From a virus: a stretch of DNA of 26,482 nt. The position numbers were made by a program, and so were the translations under genes. Under the pieces are notes generated by a model that was not told where the DNA came from, made no database searches, and worked only from the letters and a program-made list of their open reading frames with translations. Of the stretch, positions 412-26,482 are shown piece after piece (the first letter of the stretch is position 1; each line of letters starts with the position of its first letter). The DNA lies in IMG/VR virus record IMGVR_UViG_3300025655_000016, positions 1 through 26,482 of that record; one strand, written 5' to 3'.

Positions 412-836
412 TGTGGGTTCTTCACAGCCAAGGAACATTCCATTCTGACCCAGTTGCATTGGGTCGACCAAGAATGTCCAGATTCGGTGCATACACACCC
501 AAGAAATCCAGAGAATATCAGCAGTCAATGTTGGATGCCTTGGGTCCTGTGGATGCACCATTGGATGGACCAGTCAAGTTGTCAATCACATTCTGTCACA
601 AGAGACCACAGAGATTGAACCGCAAGTCTGACACAGTGGCCAGAATTCCAAAGACCACCAAACCAGACATCGACAATCTGGTCAAAATGGTGATGGATGT
701 GTTGACCAAAGGTTCAGTATGGTTGGATGACAATCAAGTGGTGTCCATCACAGCTGAAGACTGGTATTGTTCCCAAGAAGAAGAACCACACACCCAATGG
801 AGAATCTACACAATGACAACACAACAATCAAACTGA
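408..836 (+). CDS. rusA: RusA-type Holliday junction resolvase
   Basis: The 142-residue product matches the RusA endonuclease family, small dimeric magnesium-dependent nucleases that cut four-way DNA junctions symmetrically. The family signature is present: KPDIDNLVKMVMDVL at residues 86-100 followed by VWLDDNQVV at 104-112. It supplies the acidic residues (D87, D89, D107/D108) expected to bind metal, and the lysine-rich stretch before them fits DNA binding. The length is close to the family norm of about 120 residues. The start overlaps the preceding stop in ATGATG, so translation is probably coupled; ATG 411 is an equally possible start. In phages of this type RusA removes branches from replicated DNA before packaging, which suits its place at the head of a primase-helicase operon. 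Confidence 0.88.
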   Translation: MMWVLHSQGTFHSDPVALGRPRMSRFGAYTPKKSREYQQSMLDALGPVDAPLDGPVKLSITFCHKRPQRLNRKSDTVARIPKTTKPDIDNLVKMVMDVLTKGSVWLDDNQVVSITAEDWYCSQEEEPHTQWRIYTMTTQQSN

Positions 837-845
837 GATATCAAC

Positions 846-1721
846 ATGACAAGAACAACATTCAAACTAACAACATTTAACCATGTCAAAGCCAACCGGG
901 GCAGAACAATCACAGTGGACATTGATGGACTGAGAAGGGGCCTATTGGGTTCCATGGGTACACTGGATGACAAGAATCAACTGCCATTGTGGTCACCATC
1001 GACATTCACACATGACCATCGAAACAAGATGAACACCATTGCAGTTCATCACTTGGTGTTTGACATGGATGATGGGATTGCACCACTTGATTCATGGAGA
1101 TTGTTCACAGACTGGACAGTCTTGGTTCACACATCATTCAGCCACAAAGCACATCATCACAAGTACAGAATCATATTGCCATTGGCAGAACCCATTCCCG
1201 GTGCAGATTGGGATAGGGCAGCTGTAGCAGCATCCAACTTGTGGACACATGTGATTGGTCGTGGAGAACCAGACCCAAAAGCACTGAAAGACCGTGCCAG
1301 AGTATATTTCAGATATGGGATTCCATCCAGTGAACATCCAGAAGACCATCCACAGCATCCAAAGCACATCCACCAGACACACATCCACATTGGTGACTTG
1401 TTGAAACTGGAGTATGAAGATATAATCATTGAACCACCAAGACCAAAGACCACCACCAAAGTCTATATGAATGGCAAGGCATCGATGGATGATGTGTTCA
1501 TGGATTCCAGATTCAGACAACGTGTGGCCAATGAACTGGGTGCAACTATCCAAGGCAATGAAGCAAGATACATCACTTGTCCGGGATGTTCCAGACAGAG
1601 TGTTCATTTCAGTTTGGAGCCATCAATCCCAAACAGTTACAAGTGGCCAACATGCAACCACCAGAACAGTTGTGGATGGTGGGGCAGCTTCATCGACATG
1701 GACATCAACATCACACAATGA
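846..1721 (+). CDS. Primase-like replication protein (AEP-type core plus zinc ribbon)
   Basis: The 291-residue protein resembles phage and plasmid replication proteins with an archaeo-eukaryotic primase core. The visible marks are a metal-binding FDMDD at residues 72-76, then the typical strand HKYRIILPL at 105-113 after a histidine-rich HTSFSHKAHHH, and DRARVYF at 149-155. The C-terminus has a probable zinc ribbon, CPGC at 245-248 and CNHQNSCG at 270-277, as in primases that read a template sequence. It starts 9 bases after the resolvase stop and overlaps the helicase start by 4 bases, so primase and helicase are translationally linked and likely work as one replisome unit. Without a phage polymerase, host polymerase III would extend its primers. 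The core assignment rests on motif pattern only; a replication initiator lacking primase activity is the alternative. Confidence 0.68.
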   Translation: MTRTTFKLTTFNHVKANRGRTITVDIDGLRRGLLGSMGTLDDKNQLPLWSPSTFTHDHRNKMNTIAVHHLVFDMDDGIAPLDSWRLFTDWTVLVHTSFSHKAHHHKYRIILPLAEPIPGADWDRAAVAASNLWTHVIGRGEPDPKALKDRARVYFRYGIPSSEHPEDHPQHPKHIHQTHIHIGDLLKLEYEDIIIEPPRPKTTTKVYMNGKASMDDVFMDSRFRQRVANELGATIQGNEARYITCPGCSRQSVHFSLEPSIPNSYKWPTCNHQNSCGWWGSFIDMDINITQ

Positions 1722-3034
1722 CAACAACACAACAACAATCAAAAATAGGTATGAAAATGACACGACAAGAAATGGACAGATTCAAGGCACTGATGGCATT
1801 GGCCAAAGATGAACTTGGTGTGGTGGTAGAAGATAAAGGGAATCCACCAGATGCAGACATTGACACTTGGGATATGTTGCGGAAGGTGACCAAGAAAGGA
1901 ACTGGAATGCTGACACCATTGAACTGCAGATACAACACAGCCACCATATTGAGACAAGACCCAAGATATTCAAGTCTCTGTTACAATGAACACAGTGACA
2001 AGATTCTATTGGATGACACAATGGTTGATGATGCCATGATGGAACGGATTGCACTGGAATTTGAAGAGAACTACCGATACAAGGTGACAGACAAAGCACT
2101 TCGGGCCAGTGTTATCATGGTAGCCCAAGAACGGACCATTGAACCCATCAAGGAATGGTTGACCAGTATTCCAGAATGGGATGGAGAAGACAGAATCCAA
2201 TGGTTTTTCCACAACATCTTGAATGCCAAGATTCCAGATGGTGCATCACAGTTGGTGACAGAAATGTCTTGCAAGTGGTTTATCAGTTGTGTGGCCAGAG
2301 TCATGGAACCCGGTTGCAAGATGGACACATGTTTGGTGTTGGTTGGTGCCAAGGGAATGAGAAAGTCCACAGCACTGAAGGAACTGGCAAGTGAAGAATA
2401 CTTTTCAGATTCCAACATCAACATCAGTCACAAAGATTCATATGAGCTGTTGCACCAGTCTGGTGTTTGGATTTGGGAACTGGCAGAAATGCATGCACTC
2501 CAGGGAAAGACAGCAGCCAATGCAAAACAGTTCTTGACCAGTGCCAGTGACAGATATAGACCAGCCTATGCCAAGATGCCAGTCCAACGAAGCAGAAGAA
2601 CAGTGTTCACAGCATCCACCAATGACTATCAGTTCTTGTCTGATGGTCCTGAACGCAGATTCTGGATTGTGGAGGTGGGTTCCAAGATTGACATCCAGTA
2701 CATCAAAGAGAACAGAATCCAACTGTGGGCAGAAGCTTTGCACTATTATAGACAAGGACTGGAATGGTGGTTGTTAGAAGAATCAGAAGAAAAGTTGATG
2801 GAGTATCAACAGTCATTCATCATCGATGACCCGTGGACAGTCAAGGTATTGGAATGCATCAAGATGAACCAAGGACATGCAACCACCACACAAATCATGG
2901 AACACTTGCAACTGTCAGCTGCAATGCAACACAGTGGATTCAGTCGAAGGATTGCCCAGATATGTCGTGACTGTGGATATGAACAGTTCTTCAGTGGAGA
3001 GCAGAAGACAAGAATGTGGAGAAGAAAGCGATAG
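1718..3034 (+). CDS. VirE-type superfamily 3-like replicative helicase/ATPase
   Basis: The 438-residue protein fits the virulence-associated E (VirE) ATPase family found beside phage primases. A P-loop GAKGMRKS lies at about residues 210-217, with arginine where the usual second glycine stands. VWIWELAEM, about 40 residues on, is the Walker B segment, and STNDYQFLSDGPERRFW is the family's characteristic sensor and arginine-finger stretch. An N-terminal region with EWLTSIPEWDGEDRI is also typical of the family. A winged-helix-like tail (residues about 370-438, ATTTQIMEHLQLS) may bind DNA. ATG 1718 was chosen for the ATGA overlap seen throughout this genome; ATG 1757, which follows AGG at good distance, is a serious alternative. 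The gene ends just upstream of the DnaA-box array, so the replication operon abuts its origin. Confidence 0.82.
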   Translation: MTTTQQQSKIGMKMTRQEMDRFKALMALAKDELGVVVEDKGNPPDADIDTWDMLRKVTKKGTGMLTPLNCRYNTATILRQDPRYSSLCYNEHSDKILLDDTMVDDAMMERIALEFEENYRYKVTDKALRASVIMVAQERTIEPIKEWLTSIPEWDGEDRIQWFFHNILNAKIPDGASQLVTEMSCKWFISCVARVMEPGCKMDTCLVLVGAKGMRKSTALKELASEEYFSDSNINISHKDSYELLHQSGVWIWELAEMHALQGKTAANAKQFLTSASDRYRPAYAKMPVQRSRRTVFTASTNDYQFLSDGPERRFWIVEVGSKIDIQYIKENRIQLWAEALHYYRQGLEWWLLEESEEKLMEYQQSFIIDDPWTVKVLECIKMNQGHATTTQIMEHLQLSAAMQHSGFSRRIAQICRDCGYEQFFSGEQKTRMWRRKR

Positions 3035-3092
3035 TTTGATTCTGTTGTCAGAACTATAGTCACAGTTGATATTCACCAGACAAAACAAACTA

Positions 3093-3204
3093 TGTGGATA
3101 ACTTATCAACAGGGTGTGGATAACTTGTCCACAGACTTATCCACAATACTTGTCCACAAGTGTGGATAACTTGTCCACAGGGTGTGGATAACTTGTCCTC
3201 ATTC
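3093..3204. other. Replication origin: DnaA-box array
   Basis: Five perfect DnaA boxes are present: TGTGGATAA at 3093, 3115, 3161 and 3183, and the inverse TTATCCACA at 3137. The starts are 22, 22, 24 and 22 bp apart, about two helical turns. Between them sit one-mismatch boxes (TTATCAACA at 3103; TTGTCCACA at 3125, 3150 and 3171). The repeating unit is a near-dyad, TGTGGATAACTTGTCCACA, so each unit offers two facing boxes about one turn apart. AT-rich DNA follows directly (3199-3235). Clustered boxes next to a replication operon are the standard mark of a DnaA-dependent origin. The boxes are seen; origin function is inferred. Confidence 0.88.
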
Positions 3205-3221
3205 AGATTATATGATATAAT
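3193..3221 (+). promoter_or_regulatory. Sigma70 promoter overlapping the last DnaA half-unit
   Basis: TTGTCC at 3193-3198 and a perfect TATAAT at 3216-3221 are separated by 17 bp. The -35 element is part of the final DnaA repeat, so DnaA binding would compete with RNA polymerase. Transcription should begin near 3228. Confidence 0.6.
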
Positions 3222-3227
3222 GAATAT

Positions 3228-3303
3228 GAAGCTATCTTCTCCAGTAGATATCTTTGATTGATTGTTGTTTGAGGGGCCATCCATTGGGTGGTCTCTTTTG
3301 CTT
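3228..3303 (+). ncRNA. Putative origin-proximal small RNA (about 75 nt)
   Basis: This is the stretch between the predicted start of the 3193-3221 promoter and the terminator at 3271-3307. It has no convincing reading frame or Shine-Dalgarno site. It begins near a small hairpin (GAAG and CTTC around 3228-3241) and ends in the terminator stem. An RNA beside an origin could act as a replication primer or as a copy-control RNA, or it could simply be transcription that helps melt the DNA. Its existence is inferred from promoter and terminator alone. Confidence 0.4.
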
Positions 3304-3307
3304 TTTT
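3271..3307 (+). terminator. Rho-independent terminator after the replication operon
   Basis: A hairpin at 3271-3295 pairs GAGG with TCTC and CCATCC with GGGTGG (one G-T pair in each), with a GG bulge and an ATT loop. The T-rich run TTTTGCTTTTTT follows. It would end both the early operon and the proposed small RNA. Confidence 0.7.
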
Positions 3308-3326
3308 CATCCAATACCTTGTTCGA

Positions 3327-3370
3327 TATACAGATGAAATCAGATATATACAGATAAAATCAGATAACTG
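3327..3370 (+). repeat. Left CAGAT array, 10-bp phased iterons
   Basis: CAGAT begins at 3331, 3341, 3351 and 3361, exactly one helical turn apart, so all copies lie on one DNA face. At the larger scale these are two tandem 20-bp units (3327-3346 and 3347-3366) that differ at one position. Bases 3347-3367 recur as a perfect inverted copy at 3572-3592. Such iterons usually bind an initiator or regulator protein; the binder here is unknown. Confidence 0.7.
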
Positions 3371-3440
3371 GTTGGTACTTTGTCCAGTTGCCATCGATAC
3401 TGTAGAGAAAAATCACCAGTTTTGTCGATGTCGCTATCTG

Positions 3441-3527
3441 GGTTTACATATTTTAAATATACTAAAATCAAAAAAGTTTAGTGAAAAATTCTATTATATA
3501 TAGATATATATATATACTATATAGAAC
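3441..3527. other. AT-rich core between the CAGAT arrays (possible unwinding element)
   Basis: This is the most AT-rich stretch of the genome, with A and T runs and an alternating TA tract. The tract at 3489-3526 is nearly self-complementary (TTCTAT near the left end, ATAGAA near the right), so it could extrude as a cruciform or melt easily. No gene is supported here. It sits between the two inverted CAGAT arrays and about 240 bp past the DnaA boxes, which suits an unwinding site, but this is inference. Confidence 0.5.
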
Positions 3528-3563
3528 CATTGGGAACAGTAGAACAAAAGACCATGTTAGACT

Positions 3564-3609
3564 ATCTGATTTTATCTGATTTTATCTGTATATTTTGCCA
3601 AGTCATCTG
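3564..3609 (-). repeat. Right CAGAT array, inverted 10-bp phased iterons
   Basis: ATCTG, the complement of CAGAT, begins at 3564, 3574, 3584 and 3605 (steps 10, 10 and 21), mirroring the left array. Bases 3572-3592 are the perfect inverted copy of 3347-3367. The array lies just past the stop of the minus-strand gene at 3617. Confidence 0.68.
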
Positions 3610-3616
3610 TATTCAA

Positions 3617-3961
3617 TCACTTGGATTCCAGTTGTCTGATTGCTCTTTTGACCCATCTTCTGGCAGCAGTTCCACCCCACAAAGCCCAAGCGATGGCCGC
3701 CTTGGATGTTCTGTCTTGTCTGGCCTTGGATTCTTGTTCTGATTCACCATGTCTTGCAAACCATGCATCCATCAACTTCAGCTGTTCCAAGTCAACAGAA
3801 CCAGATGCCAATCTTCTAGCAGTTCTCATTCCAGTACCGGGAACCCTTTTGCCACCTTCATCTTTGAATGCAGCTCTTTTGGACATGGGAAGAGATATGT
3901 TATAGTCGATTGCTCTTTTTGCAATCAGTTGGATGTCTTTGGGTACTGTTACAGTTGGCAT
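3617..3961 (-). CDS. Conserved-type phage protein of unknown function (minus strand)
   Basis: This 114-residue basic protein is one of only two minus-strand genes. From residue about 40 to 105 it shows a pattern I associate with a short domain found in many phage proteins: MRTARRLASG, then a helix ending in MDAWFARHGES, then AAIAWALWGGTAARRW. The function of that domain is not established to my knowledge. The start ATG at 3961 follows AGGA at about 5 bases. The gene runs towards the origin and ends just before the right CAGAT array. A TTGACA lies upstream on its strand (3994-3989), but no good -10 follows at normal spacing. It is divergent from the acidic gene starting at 3996, only 34 bp away. 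Coding status is well supported by the domain pattern; the role is unknown. Confidence 0.72.
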   Translation of the reverse strand: MPTVTVPKDIQLIAKRAIDYNISLPMSKRAAFKDEGGKRVPGTGMRTARRLASGSVDLEQLKLMDAWFARHGESEQESKARQDRTSKAAIAWALWGGTAARRWVKRAIRQLESK

Positions 3962-3995
3962 GGTGAATCCTGTTTTGATGTGTTACATTGTCAAT

Positions 3996-4385
3996 ATGAG
4001 TATATCAGATATTATTGGCACAGTTGGAATGTTGATGAATGGGATTGAATCCAATGGACCCATTGACCCAACACTACATGCAGATTTCTTTTCAGAACTT
4101 TGTGAACACAATGGTCTGGATTTCATGCATGACAGCACAGAAGGAATTGTCTTTGATTCAGATTCAGAACAAGTTTGTTTTGTTCGATGGTCTGAATCTG
4201 GTGTGGACTTTGAGCAACACACATATCATCCAATGACATTGCCAGTCATCAGATTGTGTTTGCACACATTGCAAGCATTGGAAGAATCTGAAGAGCTGCA
4301 AGACTTGGAAGAGATGTCAGAGACTGAAGAACAGACTGTGACCATGAAAGAAGATGACACCACTTTTGATGATGATTGGATTTAG
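3996..4385 (+). CDS. Very acidic small protein with SSB-like C-terminal tip
   Basis: The 129-residue product has 31 Asp/Glu and only 3 Lys/Arg, an extreme negative charge concentrated in the last 45 residues. It ends in TTFDDDWI, which resembles the acidic hydrophobic tip of bacterial single-strand binding proteins (DFDDDIPF in E. coli), although no OB-fold is evident. ATG 3996 was chosen because the upstream alternative (3933) would overlap the divergent minus-strand gene. No strong Shine-Dalgarno precedes it. The next gene starts right after its stop. Highly acidic phage proteins are often DNA mimics that block restriction or DNA-binding enzymes; a tip like this could also recruit host SSB partners. 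Both ideas are inference, and no family was recognised. Confidence 0.65.
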   Translation: MSISDIIGTVGMLMNGIESNGPIDPTLHADFFSELCEHNGLDFMHDSTEGIVFDSDSEQVCFVRWSESGVDFEQHTYHPMTLPVIRLCLHTLQALEESEELQDLEEMSETEEQTVTMKEDDTTFDDDWI

Positions 4386-4387
4386 GT

Positions 4388-4615
4388 ATGGCCACCAGAA
4401 AAGAAATGCAAGACTATGCAGTATCCCGGAAGATTATTCGATTGATGCGAGAAGGCTATCCCCAGAAGCAAGCCACAGCAATTGCATTCAGAATGTTGAG
4501 AGATGGAGAACTGAACATTCCAGGGAAGCCAACCAAGGTCAAAAGACAAGACCCAATCAAAGAACGCAATGAACGCAGAAGAAGATGGCAACAAGAACTG
4601 AGAAGAAGACAATGA
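4388..4615 (+). CDS. Small basic phage protein with KxMREGYPQKQA motif
   Basis: The product is 75 residues and strongly basic. Residues about 11-36 (RKIIRLMREGYPQKQATAIA and the following FRMLRDGEL) match a short helical module, kLmreGyPqkQAvAIA, that recurs in phage and phage-like proteins; its function is not known to me. The tail is an Arg/Lys-rich helix (RNERRRRWQQELRRR) likely to bind nucleic acid or acidic partners, notable next to the very acidic upstream product. ATG 4388 follows TAGGT closely; TTG 4376 is a possible in-frame alternative. The stop overlaps the next start in ATGATG. Confidence 0.68.
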   Translation: MATRKEMQDYAVSRKIIRLMREGYPQKQATAIAFRMLRDGELNIPGKPTKVKRQDPIKERNERRRRWQQELRRRQ

Positions 4616-19045: not shown

Positions 19046-22000
19046 ATGGCAAACACAACACCAGACAAGATGCGTGGACTATTGGTTCCAACCATCAACA
19101 TAACAAAAGATAACATTTGGCCAGAACAGTCCACATTCACACAACAGAATTCCAGAGCTGGTGTAGCCCTTCCAAGTCAGTCATACACTGGATTGTCTTT
19201 GGCAATGGCTGGTTCACAGTCTCAAGACATCACTGTTGAAACTGTCGAGGGTGGAACACCAGGAGAGAAAGCCAGTTTTGTGTTTTCTGGTTCAGATGAT
19301 GTCAAGTGTTCACAGAATGCCAACAATGTCATCACTGATTGGAAATATCTGAATTTCACCAATACCACAGCAAGCTATTCAGACTATGGAATCACAGCAT
19401 CCCAAGATGGAACACTGTATTGGGTCACTGAATTGAACAATGGTTTGATCTATACCATTTCAGTCAGAAGACAGAAGCAGAATGGCAGCATTGAAACACT
19501 GCAGACACTGTTGACCACCACTTTGTCTGGTTCACCACAGAACACAGCCAAACCATGCATTGCAGTCTTGAAAGATGGTTCAATCATTGTGACCTTCTTC
19601 AACTATACCAATATCGATGTGGTCAATCTGTTTGTGTGGAGAAGCTCAGATGGTGGGGACACTTGGCAAGAAATATCCAGAAGGGCATTGGTGGACAACT
19701 ATATTGATGTCAGTGCCAGTTCTGGGAATTACTTGGATACTGCCAATCTGATTGTATCTGATGACATCATCACTTTGACTGTTGGCCTGAGAACAAAAAT
19801 CACATTGTTGGGTGACAATAAAATGGTTCAGTTTGTGTCCAGAGACAGTGGAACAAGCTTCTATGCACTTGGCTTCTATGGTGAAGAACATGCATTTCCA
19901 GTTGCTGTTGCATTGCCCAATGGTCAACAGGGATTCGCATATCTCAGTGAAACTGATACTTTATCATTCATCAAGATACCCAATCCCGGTATTGCTGCAG
20001 CGACTACACAATACACATCTGAATATCAAGTGAATGTTTCCAGTGGTGTGTTGACATTCTGCACAGCATCTGGTGACACATTGACTGATGGAACACTGGC
20101 TTGTTGGTACCAAGATGAAACCATCTTCATTGTTGTCAGAGATACAACTGGTGATTTGTATGGCTTCCAGTCCAAAGACCTTGGTGATACTTGGCAACAG
20201 ACCAGTCAAGGGTTCACAAGTGGTGTTGCACAAACTATCTTGTATCAAGGCGGTTCCACAATCAACTTGCGGAATCTCAAAGCTGCAGTGTGGGAAGGCA
20301 GAACATTCTTGGCATTGAACACCACAAGTGGTTCAACTGGTCTCAGTCTTGGTGGATTGTATCTTGGTGGATGGTCTTCAGTTCAGCATCCAGAACGAGA
20401 ACAGCAACCAGACCGAAATCAATACTATGGATTTGAATATAACTGGATTCACAATCAGAAACCAGACAACACAACATTGTACACCACAACTGGTGCTGGT
20501 TCAGATTTCATCTTCACAGAGGGATTGAAAATCCAAACAAGTTCAAATACAAAATATTATAGATACACACCAAGTGTGTATCATGACATGTTCTATCGAT
20601 TCAAGATAAGAGTTGAAACCAATACAAGTTTGACAGCAGACAACATTGCATTCAAAGTCCAATCTTCAGATGGTTCCAACAGTTACACATTGCGGATTCG
20701 GTTTGCTGAAGGTGGATTCAGCATCTTGGACCACACTGCAACATTGCACACAGAAACCATCGACTTGACAACCATGCATGAATTCATGGTGTTCCAAGAT
20801 GCCACAAAGGTCAAAGTGTACTACCGTTCATGGGATGAAAAACAAGCCAAGGTATGGACAGAAATCAGTGTGACACTTGGAACCCAAGCACCGGGAATCA
20901 CAAGATTGTTCCATTGGGGCCATCTGTCAAGTGGAACATTTATATCATACTGGCCAGAAATGCATGTATCAGCTGGTGGCATTGGTGAACCAAATGCTGA
21001 ATTGCGTGGTGCTGTGTATCCAGCTTATGGTTCATATGCATACATTGATGGTGGTCTGTTACTGAGTGCCAAAGATGCCCCGGCCAGAGCTGGTGACCAA
21101 TACAAGATTGCACCAAGATATGACTATCCGATTGACCACATATTCCATCAAGTTGCTTTGTCACCTAGGGTGGTTTGGAGAAGTGTTGATAACTTATCCA
21201 CAGAGCGGATTGCATGGTACACGGACCCAGTCACCAAGTCAAGTGAGAAGAATCTTGGATTGAATGATGTTGCTGGTCTCCATCTGTCCAATATCAACTG
21301 GAAGACAGCCACATTGAAGACATGGAATGGTTCCAGTTGGTCAACTGCTGTGTCCATCGATGTGTCAACTGGTCTGTCAGGAAACTTTGAAAGGGTGGGT
21401 GCAACACTGGTTCCAGACAACCTGACCAAGAACATCTATCTGAAATATGGTGAATGTGTTGGATGGCGTGCAGAACTGATATCTGGTGAAACCAAGTACA
21501 TTGTGAAGATAGTGCAAAACAGTGAAGGATTGTGGACAAAGACATCAGATGCCAAAAGTGCTGTATTGGTCTTTGACAGTGAACTGGTGGATCCAACGAC
21601 ACTTCCAACCAGTGGAACAATCAACTTGATTCCAGACAGTGTGACTATTGTTTCAGAAGCCTTCCAAGGTGCTGCCGGTGCTGGTGAGGTGGCATATGCC
21701 ATCGAGATTCCAACACAGGATACATTGGAAGGATACTATCAGATTGGCACCATGGTCTTTGGTTCAATATATTTCATGGCACCACAATATCAACGTGGTC
21801 GAAGTATCAACTATGAACCAAATGTCCAATCATACACCACCAATGATGGAATGTACTATGCACGCAAGATGTCAGAAGGTCGCAGAACATTCCAAGTGGC
21901 ATGGACAGAACCTGTGGACAGTCGGACCATCTATGAACTGAACCCAGATTTCTGGCAGTTCAGCAATGCCAGTGGAGCAATGCCAATTGCCAACTATGGG

Positions 22001-26277: not shown

Positions 26278-26482
26278 ATGACACAAGAAATCAGAGACTA
26301 CATCAGAAGACATGGAAGAACAGCAGCCAGAAAGCGGTTTGGTGACATCATAGATAACATTGACATCAAGTTCGATGGAAGAACAGTTGGTGTGGTGAAA
26401 AGATATTGGCATCCACAGTTCACTTGTTATGTGTGGGAAGCAGTATTGACCCATGATGGCCAAACATACAGCCATCTTGATT
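26278..26482 (+). CDS. XRE-like HTH regulator, N-terminal part (continues at base 1)
   Basis: ATG 26278 has AGGAGA nine bases upstream and opens the gene that continues, after 26355, at base 1 and stops at 411. The N-terminal segment MTQEIRDYIRRHGRTAARKR is basic and helical. Bases 26356-26482 repeat 1-127 and encode the same residues, so this copy is truncated only by the window edge. The full product is 162 residues. Confidence 0.8.
   Translation, partial: MTQEIRDYIRRHGRTAARKRFGDIIDNIDIKFDGRTVGVVKRYWHPQFTCYVWEAVLTHDGQTYSHLD
26356..26482. repeat. Terminal direct repeat, right copy (127 bp)
   Basis: This copy is identical to 1-127 and preserves the reading frame of the regulator gene. With the left copy it shows that the unit genome is 26,355 bp and that the window is a complete circular or circularly permuted molecule. 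Confidence 0.95.

Follow-up and report, generated by a model that had tools for sequence, protein, structure and literature searches.

The window, by which we mean the whole stretch of viral DNA analyzed (IMG/VR record IMGVR_UViG_3300025655_000016, 26,482 nucleotides), ends with the same 127 bases with which it begins (1-127 = 26356-26482) and is therefore probably complete, either as a circular or as a terminally redundant genome. Besides RusA, TerS, TerL, and head and tail proteins, it encodes a primase-like protein (846-1721, plus strand) followed by a helicase (1757-3034, plus strand). The helicase is of the VapE/SF3 type (PF05272, 9e-66) and matches one solved chain, PDB 7pds ('similar to D. 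nodosus vapE', 2.3e-27); with its helix-turn-helix-like C-terminal end it is predicted to be the origin-binding initiator. The primase-like protein carries C-terminal zinc-ribbon-like cysteines and gave a weak primase match in PHROG, whereas the best match of its AlphaFold model (pLDDT 77.5) was the cyanophage S-2L PrimPol (E 8.4e-5, with low TM-scores of 0.33/0.49). We assign it tentatively, at the level of fold only, to the AEP-type primases. About 580 bp of non-coding DNA lies between the helicase end (3034) and a reverse-strand gene (3617-3961), and the array, the predicted small RNA gene and the iteron core described below are found there, downstream of both replication genes.

A sequence-only reading of this DNA had placed a phage primase-like protein and a helicase alongside an origin that recruits the host initiator, in a small phage lacking its own polymerase. 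Both proteins are indeed encoded near the array and no DNA polymerase family was matched among the window proteins searched, but the phage has a SaPI-Rep-like initiator helicase and thus need not depend on DnaA alone. No named phage in the collection searched is a close relative of the group: the DNA of 800-4400 had no match among named phages and TerL was only 21-26% identical to theirs. The helicase profile found no relative in genome contigs of bacteria and archaea, hence no prophage and no pointer to a host.

The DnaA-box array

A motif scan with TTATCCACA, allowing at most one mismatch, found nine DnaA boxes filling 3093-3191. Five are perfect (3093, 3115, 3161 and 3183 on the minus strand, 3137 on the plus strand) and four have one mismatch (3103, 3125, 3150 and 3171, all plus strand). 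A degenerate half-site with two mismatches, TTGTCCTCA at 3193 on the plus strand, is the tenth and extends the array to 3201. Across 500 dinucleotide shuffles the maximum per 120 bp was three boxes in all and one perfect box, as compared with nine and five observed, and thus the clustering first read from the sequence is beyond chance.

The perfect boxes start 22, 22, 24 and 22 bp apart, as claimed earlier, but the underlying box-to-box steps are 10, 12, 10, 12, 13, 11, 10, 12 and 10 bp, so that each box takes up roughly a turn of the helix. As the steps are all 10-13 bp, the boxes lie to a first approximation on one face of the helix. Four pairs form 19-bp dyads of the design TGTGGATAA-C-TTRTCMACA, but the claim that every unit is a near-dyad of facing boxes fails for the third perfect box, which is on the opposite strand and belongs to a same-strand run. 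The 22-bp phasing was rejected as the key feature, since 12-bp direct repeats or 33-bp units replace it in other members of the family. DnaA is the most likely ligand of these predicted boxes. Note that TTATCAACA, frequent in the arrays of the window and its relatives, does not fit the E. coli consensus TTWTNCACA (PMC5835720), which may not be that of the host. A lone dyad of the array design (TGTTGATAACTTATCCACA, 21184-21202) lies within a 1063-aa open reading frame and holds the sixth perfect box of the window; it may be there by chance.

Searches with the array DNA gave no match among plasmids and only short partial matches among phages. The tandem-dyad pattern was reported in nine IMG/VR stretches, all from this phage family (the relatives L053 and L054 among them), and had no match in 11.3 million bacterial and archaeal contigs, which argues that the array is not a copy of a known oriC layout. 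Direct-repeat arrays are common, with at least 120 IMG/VR stretches having three tandem boxes, although some of these may be plasmid or host DNA.

The iteron core and a predicted small RNA gene

Downstream of the array, within 3326-3367, four CAGAT iterons (3331, 3341, 3351 and 3361, spanning 3331-3365) follow one another in exact 10-bp steps. They are opposed across a spacer of about 200 bp by an inverted set on the minus strand (3563-3609), in which ATCTG occurs at 3564, 3574 and 3584 in 10-bp steps and again 21 bp farther on at 3605. The spacer contains the lowest duplex stability in the whole 26.5-kb window, whether calculated over 60 bp (3463-3522) or over 100 bp (3443-3542), and the position of this AT-rich DNA is conserved in relatives. 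We regard 3443-3542 as the probable unwinding element. The AT-rich DNA that adjoins the array (3206-3265) is the fourth least stable 60 bp of the window. In almost all of the 12 CAGAT or TACAC loci compared the geometry is kept (four forward iterons at about 10 bp, the spacer of about 200 bp and three or four inverted iterons at about 10 bp), while the motif changes from CAGAT to TACAC. The iteron core, about 200 bases downstream of the array and better conserved than it, is the likely start of replication. GC skew cannot decide the origin position, because nearly all genes are on one strand.

A putative small RNA (sRNA) gene, previously undescribed and conserved in its place between helicase and iterons, occupies 3228-3306 on the plus strand. 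A predicted sigma-70-type promoter with an extended -10 (TTGTCC-17-TGaTATAAT, 3193-3221, plus strand) and an intrinsic terminator (3271-3306, with a stem at 3271-3297 and a T-run) delimit an RNA of about 75 nt (3228 to about 3300), consisting of a 5' hairpin, a GU-rich single-stranded linker and the terminator. Its gene is homologous in L009, L011, L013, L014, L039, L042-L046, L053 and L079, and Rfam gave no family match for 3228-3300. When the RNAs of 13 loci were folded singly, the 3' terminator hairpin formed with changing sequence and many pair types at most levels, although pair levels were counted from the loop on single folds, a procedure that by construction leans toward a terminator shape. 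The 5' hairpin was present in nearly all 13 loci, with the GU-rich linker between the two hairpins. RNAalifold on a MAFFT alignment of these RNAs returned no structure owing to misalignment.

In the window the seed of the linker (TTGATTGTTGTT, 3258-3269, plus strand) is the perfect complement of a CA-rich stretch of the helicase leader (AACAACAATCAA, 1731-1742, plus strand) just upstream of the ATG at 1757, giving 12 contiguous pairs. Across eight representative phages matched linker-leader pairs bound better than mismatched pairs, the gain being about 3 kcal/mol for each pair (permutation p 0.0004-0.0009, values that ignore the kinship of the phages), and the result held after dropping any one phage. 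For the leaders of eight other genes p was at least 0.03; those of orf3617 and orf4391 were borderline (0.033 and 0.05), as expected among nine genes. Pairing in L053 does not support the covariation with the helicase leader. The primase leader ranked top within the window in a noisy duplex scan of fixed-length slices but was discarded as a target because it does not co-vary with the linker (p 0.25). The co-variation of the GU-rich linker with the CA-rich helicase leader suggests that the sRNA controls the helicase; as relatedness was left uncorrected, we treat the pairing as a good lead. GU-rich-seed sRNAs such as GcvB use a GU-rich linker to bind a CA-rich translation-initiation region. The window sRNA is predicted to do likewise, but it is phage-borne, has a single predicted target next door and lacks an Rfam match.

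Presence, absence and placement of the array among relatives

About 20 related contigs, retrieved from IMG/VR by means of the helicase, TerL or array patterns, were compared. In clade A (L007-L012 and L039, with helicase identities of 89-100%) the array is present, most loci having 6-9 boxes and fewer being found within L039. The -35 of the predicted sRNA promoter is here provided by the final half-box of the array. In all six clade A loci tested 25 nt separate the last minus-strand box from the -10, although array length varies, whereas the distance from the -10 to the iterons ranges from 115 to 160 in the same six loci. In two members, L008 and L011, a DNA-methyltransferase-like gene intervenes between helicase and array. 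This gene, with a DPPY motif, lies at 6061-6699 in L008, 6452-7066 in L011 and also at 6582-7220 in L094, and is absent at the corresponding place in the window.

Clade B (L013, L014 and L042-L047, helicases 74-79% identical) has no DnaA array in any of its eight loci, and the boxes are therefore not conserved as part of the origin. Clade B retains the sRNA with its terminator, the AT-rich spacer and opposed TACAC iterons in the CAGAT geometry, the iterons beginning a few hundred bp past the helicase stop codon. Its promoter directly follows that stop codon and has at the same place a better -35, TTGATA. Elsewhere the array changes position: in L053, L079/L084 and L161 it precedes the iterons and follows a terminator or a hairpin resembling one, whereas it is found beside GTGACA-type iterons in L089 and L147, and right after the helicase in L094. 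On the reverse strand of L054 an eight-box array (790-876) separates terS from the gene beside it, and no iterons are visible nearby. From this distribution we read the origin as one conserved core (iterons plus spacer) with one movable and dispensable accessory, the array. The reverse-strand gene on the origin side of L053 is 83% identical to that of the window, but its helicase and primase are only 46% and 42% identical, which suggests modular exchange of the replication genes.

A proposed accessory DnaA element at a SaPI-like origin

The sequence-only reading took the array itself to be the origin, with DnaA the main initiator. Box density far above chance and the adjoining AT-rich DNA at 3206-3265 favor this, DnaA remains the likeliest ligand and the array does adjoin the replication genes and the probable origin. 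However, eight relatives with helicases 74-79% identical have no array, the phage itself encodes a primase and an initiator helicase, the stability minimum lies at 3463-3522 rather than at 3.1 kb, and the tandem-dyad design is missing from all 11.3 million bacterial and archaeal contigs. Hence the array is not the conserved origin, and that it is itself the origin seems very unlikely. We consider it slightly better than an even chance that the array is instead an accessory DnaA-binding element of a SaPI-Rep-like iteron origin, with the sRNA gene between the two.

In such an origin the VapE-type helicase would bind the opposed iterons on either side of the AT-rich spacer (3331-3365 and 3564-3609), open that spacer (3443-3542) and load itself, and the phage AEP primase would prime. 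Host DnaA would fill the array, one box per helical turn, in a compact nucleoprotein. As in iteron plasmids, DnaA would thereby help origin opening or recruitment of the host replisome but would not be the only initiator. The RNA of about 75 nt probably pairs with the helicase mRNA leader and, since the array overlaps its promoter in clade A, DnaA occupancy could also tune initiator supply. The array, iterons, AT-rich minimum, protein families, conservation pattern, RNA fold and RNA-leader co-variation are read directly from the sequence. The accessory reading is favored by the iteron geometry that persists despite the motif switch, by the coincidence of spacer and stability minimum, by the VapE/SaPI-Rep type of the helicase, by the presence of the array at an iteron origin in several lineages (clade A, L053, L079/L084, L161, L089 and L147), and by the co-variation of sRNA and helicase leader. 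Against it, clade B without an array makes the array function dispensable for this replicon type, the L054 array has no iterons in view, the array-to-iteron distance varies (unusual if DnaA must touch the DUE), and TTATCAACA deviates from TTWTNCACA, although the box preference of the host may differ from that of E. coli.

The same promoter overlap admits a regulatory role. DnaA on the array that supplies the -35 might gate the RNA of about 75 nt, which would repress (or activate) helicase translation and couple phage copy number to the initiation state of the host; we consider this unlikely. That the array is mainly such a transcription switch, linking phage replication to the host DnaA level through the RNA and helicase translation, is a rather unlikely proposal, although the last half-box is the -35, the 25-nt register is constant in six loci, box-less clade B has the better TTGATA, and sRNA and leader co-vary. 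The fixed register fits DnaA acting on the clade A promoter, but these loci are close kin and may simply have inherited it. Moreover, the arrays of L053, L079/L084 and L161 lie past a terminator, or a hairpin resembling one, where they cannot work through that -35, so promoter control is not the general function of the array. The shifting position, and the L054 array away from visible iterons, would suit a sponge in which about ten boxes per phage copy titrate host DnaA and halt host initiation, the phage itself relying on an initiator of its own. Box arrays occur in many other virus contigs as well, and the E. coli locus datA likewise carries perfect and one-misfit boxes (PMC5835720). Yet most arrays with readable surroundings adjoin an iteron origin, which titration does not need, and clade B manages without one; we find this account improbable. 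Chance likeness to DnaA boxes in the operators or partition site of another protein is most improbable. The 19-bp dyad symmetry would suit a dimeric helix-turn-helix protein and the phage encodes three small ones, but five boxes match the near-universal DnaA box exactly, the dyads give way to direct repeats of the same 9-mer in parts of the family, and no ParA/ParB-like protein was found among the proteins searched. In weighing these readings we infer DnaA binding, helicase-iteron binding and the direction of all regulatory effects.

The accessory reading has precedents on both sides. SaPI origins are iterons directly downstream of rep, recognized by the C-terminal domain of Rep helicases (PMC7581432). 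The VapE-type helicase, the PrimPol-like primase model and the iterons downstream of the helicase gene point to this SaPI/PICI layout, which has a separate AEP-type primase and origin-proximal AT-rich DNA as well. Unlike those islands, the phage of the window encodes a terminase and head proteins itself, and it adds the DnaA-box array, the small RNA gene and 10-bp CAGAT/TACAC iterons. The plasmids RK2, P1 and pSC101 are established examples of origins in which DnaA boxes adjoin iterons and a DUE, and in plasmids DnaA may be helpful or dispensable, depending on the host (PMC4980987). The window, L053, L079, L089, L147 and L161 similarly have boxes, iterons and an AT-rich DUE candidate in one locus, as do RK2 oriV, P1 oriR and pSC101. 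However, the plasmid initiators are winged-helix Rep proteins that need DnaB loading, whereas that of the window is an SF3-type helicase, and the phage family has up to ten packed boxes, often in dyads, in an array that can be lost or moved. The datA locus, with two perfect and four one-misfit boxes (PMC5835720), is a similarly compact cluster, but the window array is on a phage beside its origin, where titration is a candidate role.

These environmental phages thus seem to pair a self-loading initiator of the SaPI type with a DnaA-box array, a suggested joining of origin designs usually described apart, in which the DnaA part may be acquired, lost or relocated around a lasting iteron core. 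Pairs of clades with and without the array offer a natural experiment on the contribution of DnaA, and the conserved origin-side sRNA gives a testable hypothesis of copy-number control. Large arrays of 10-15 boxes also occur in phage contigs for which no relation to the window was detected: L082 (2917-3208), L095 (7652-7943), L090 (5508-5680), L091 (3066-3239) and L085 (2858-3048). In L090 the array adjoins 15-bp repeats and in L085 it is flanked by TCTAGA-type repeats.
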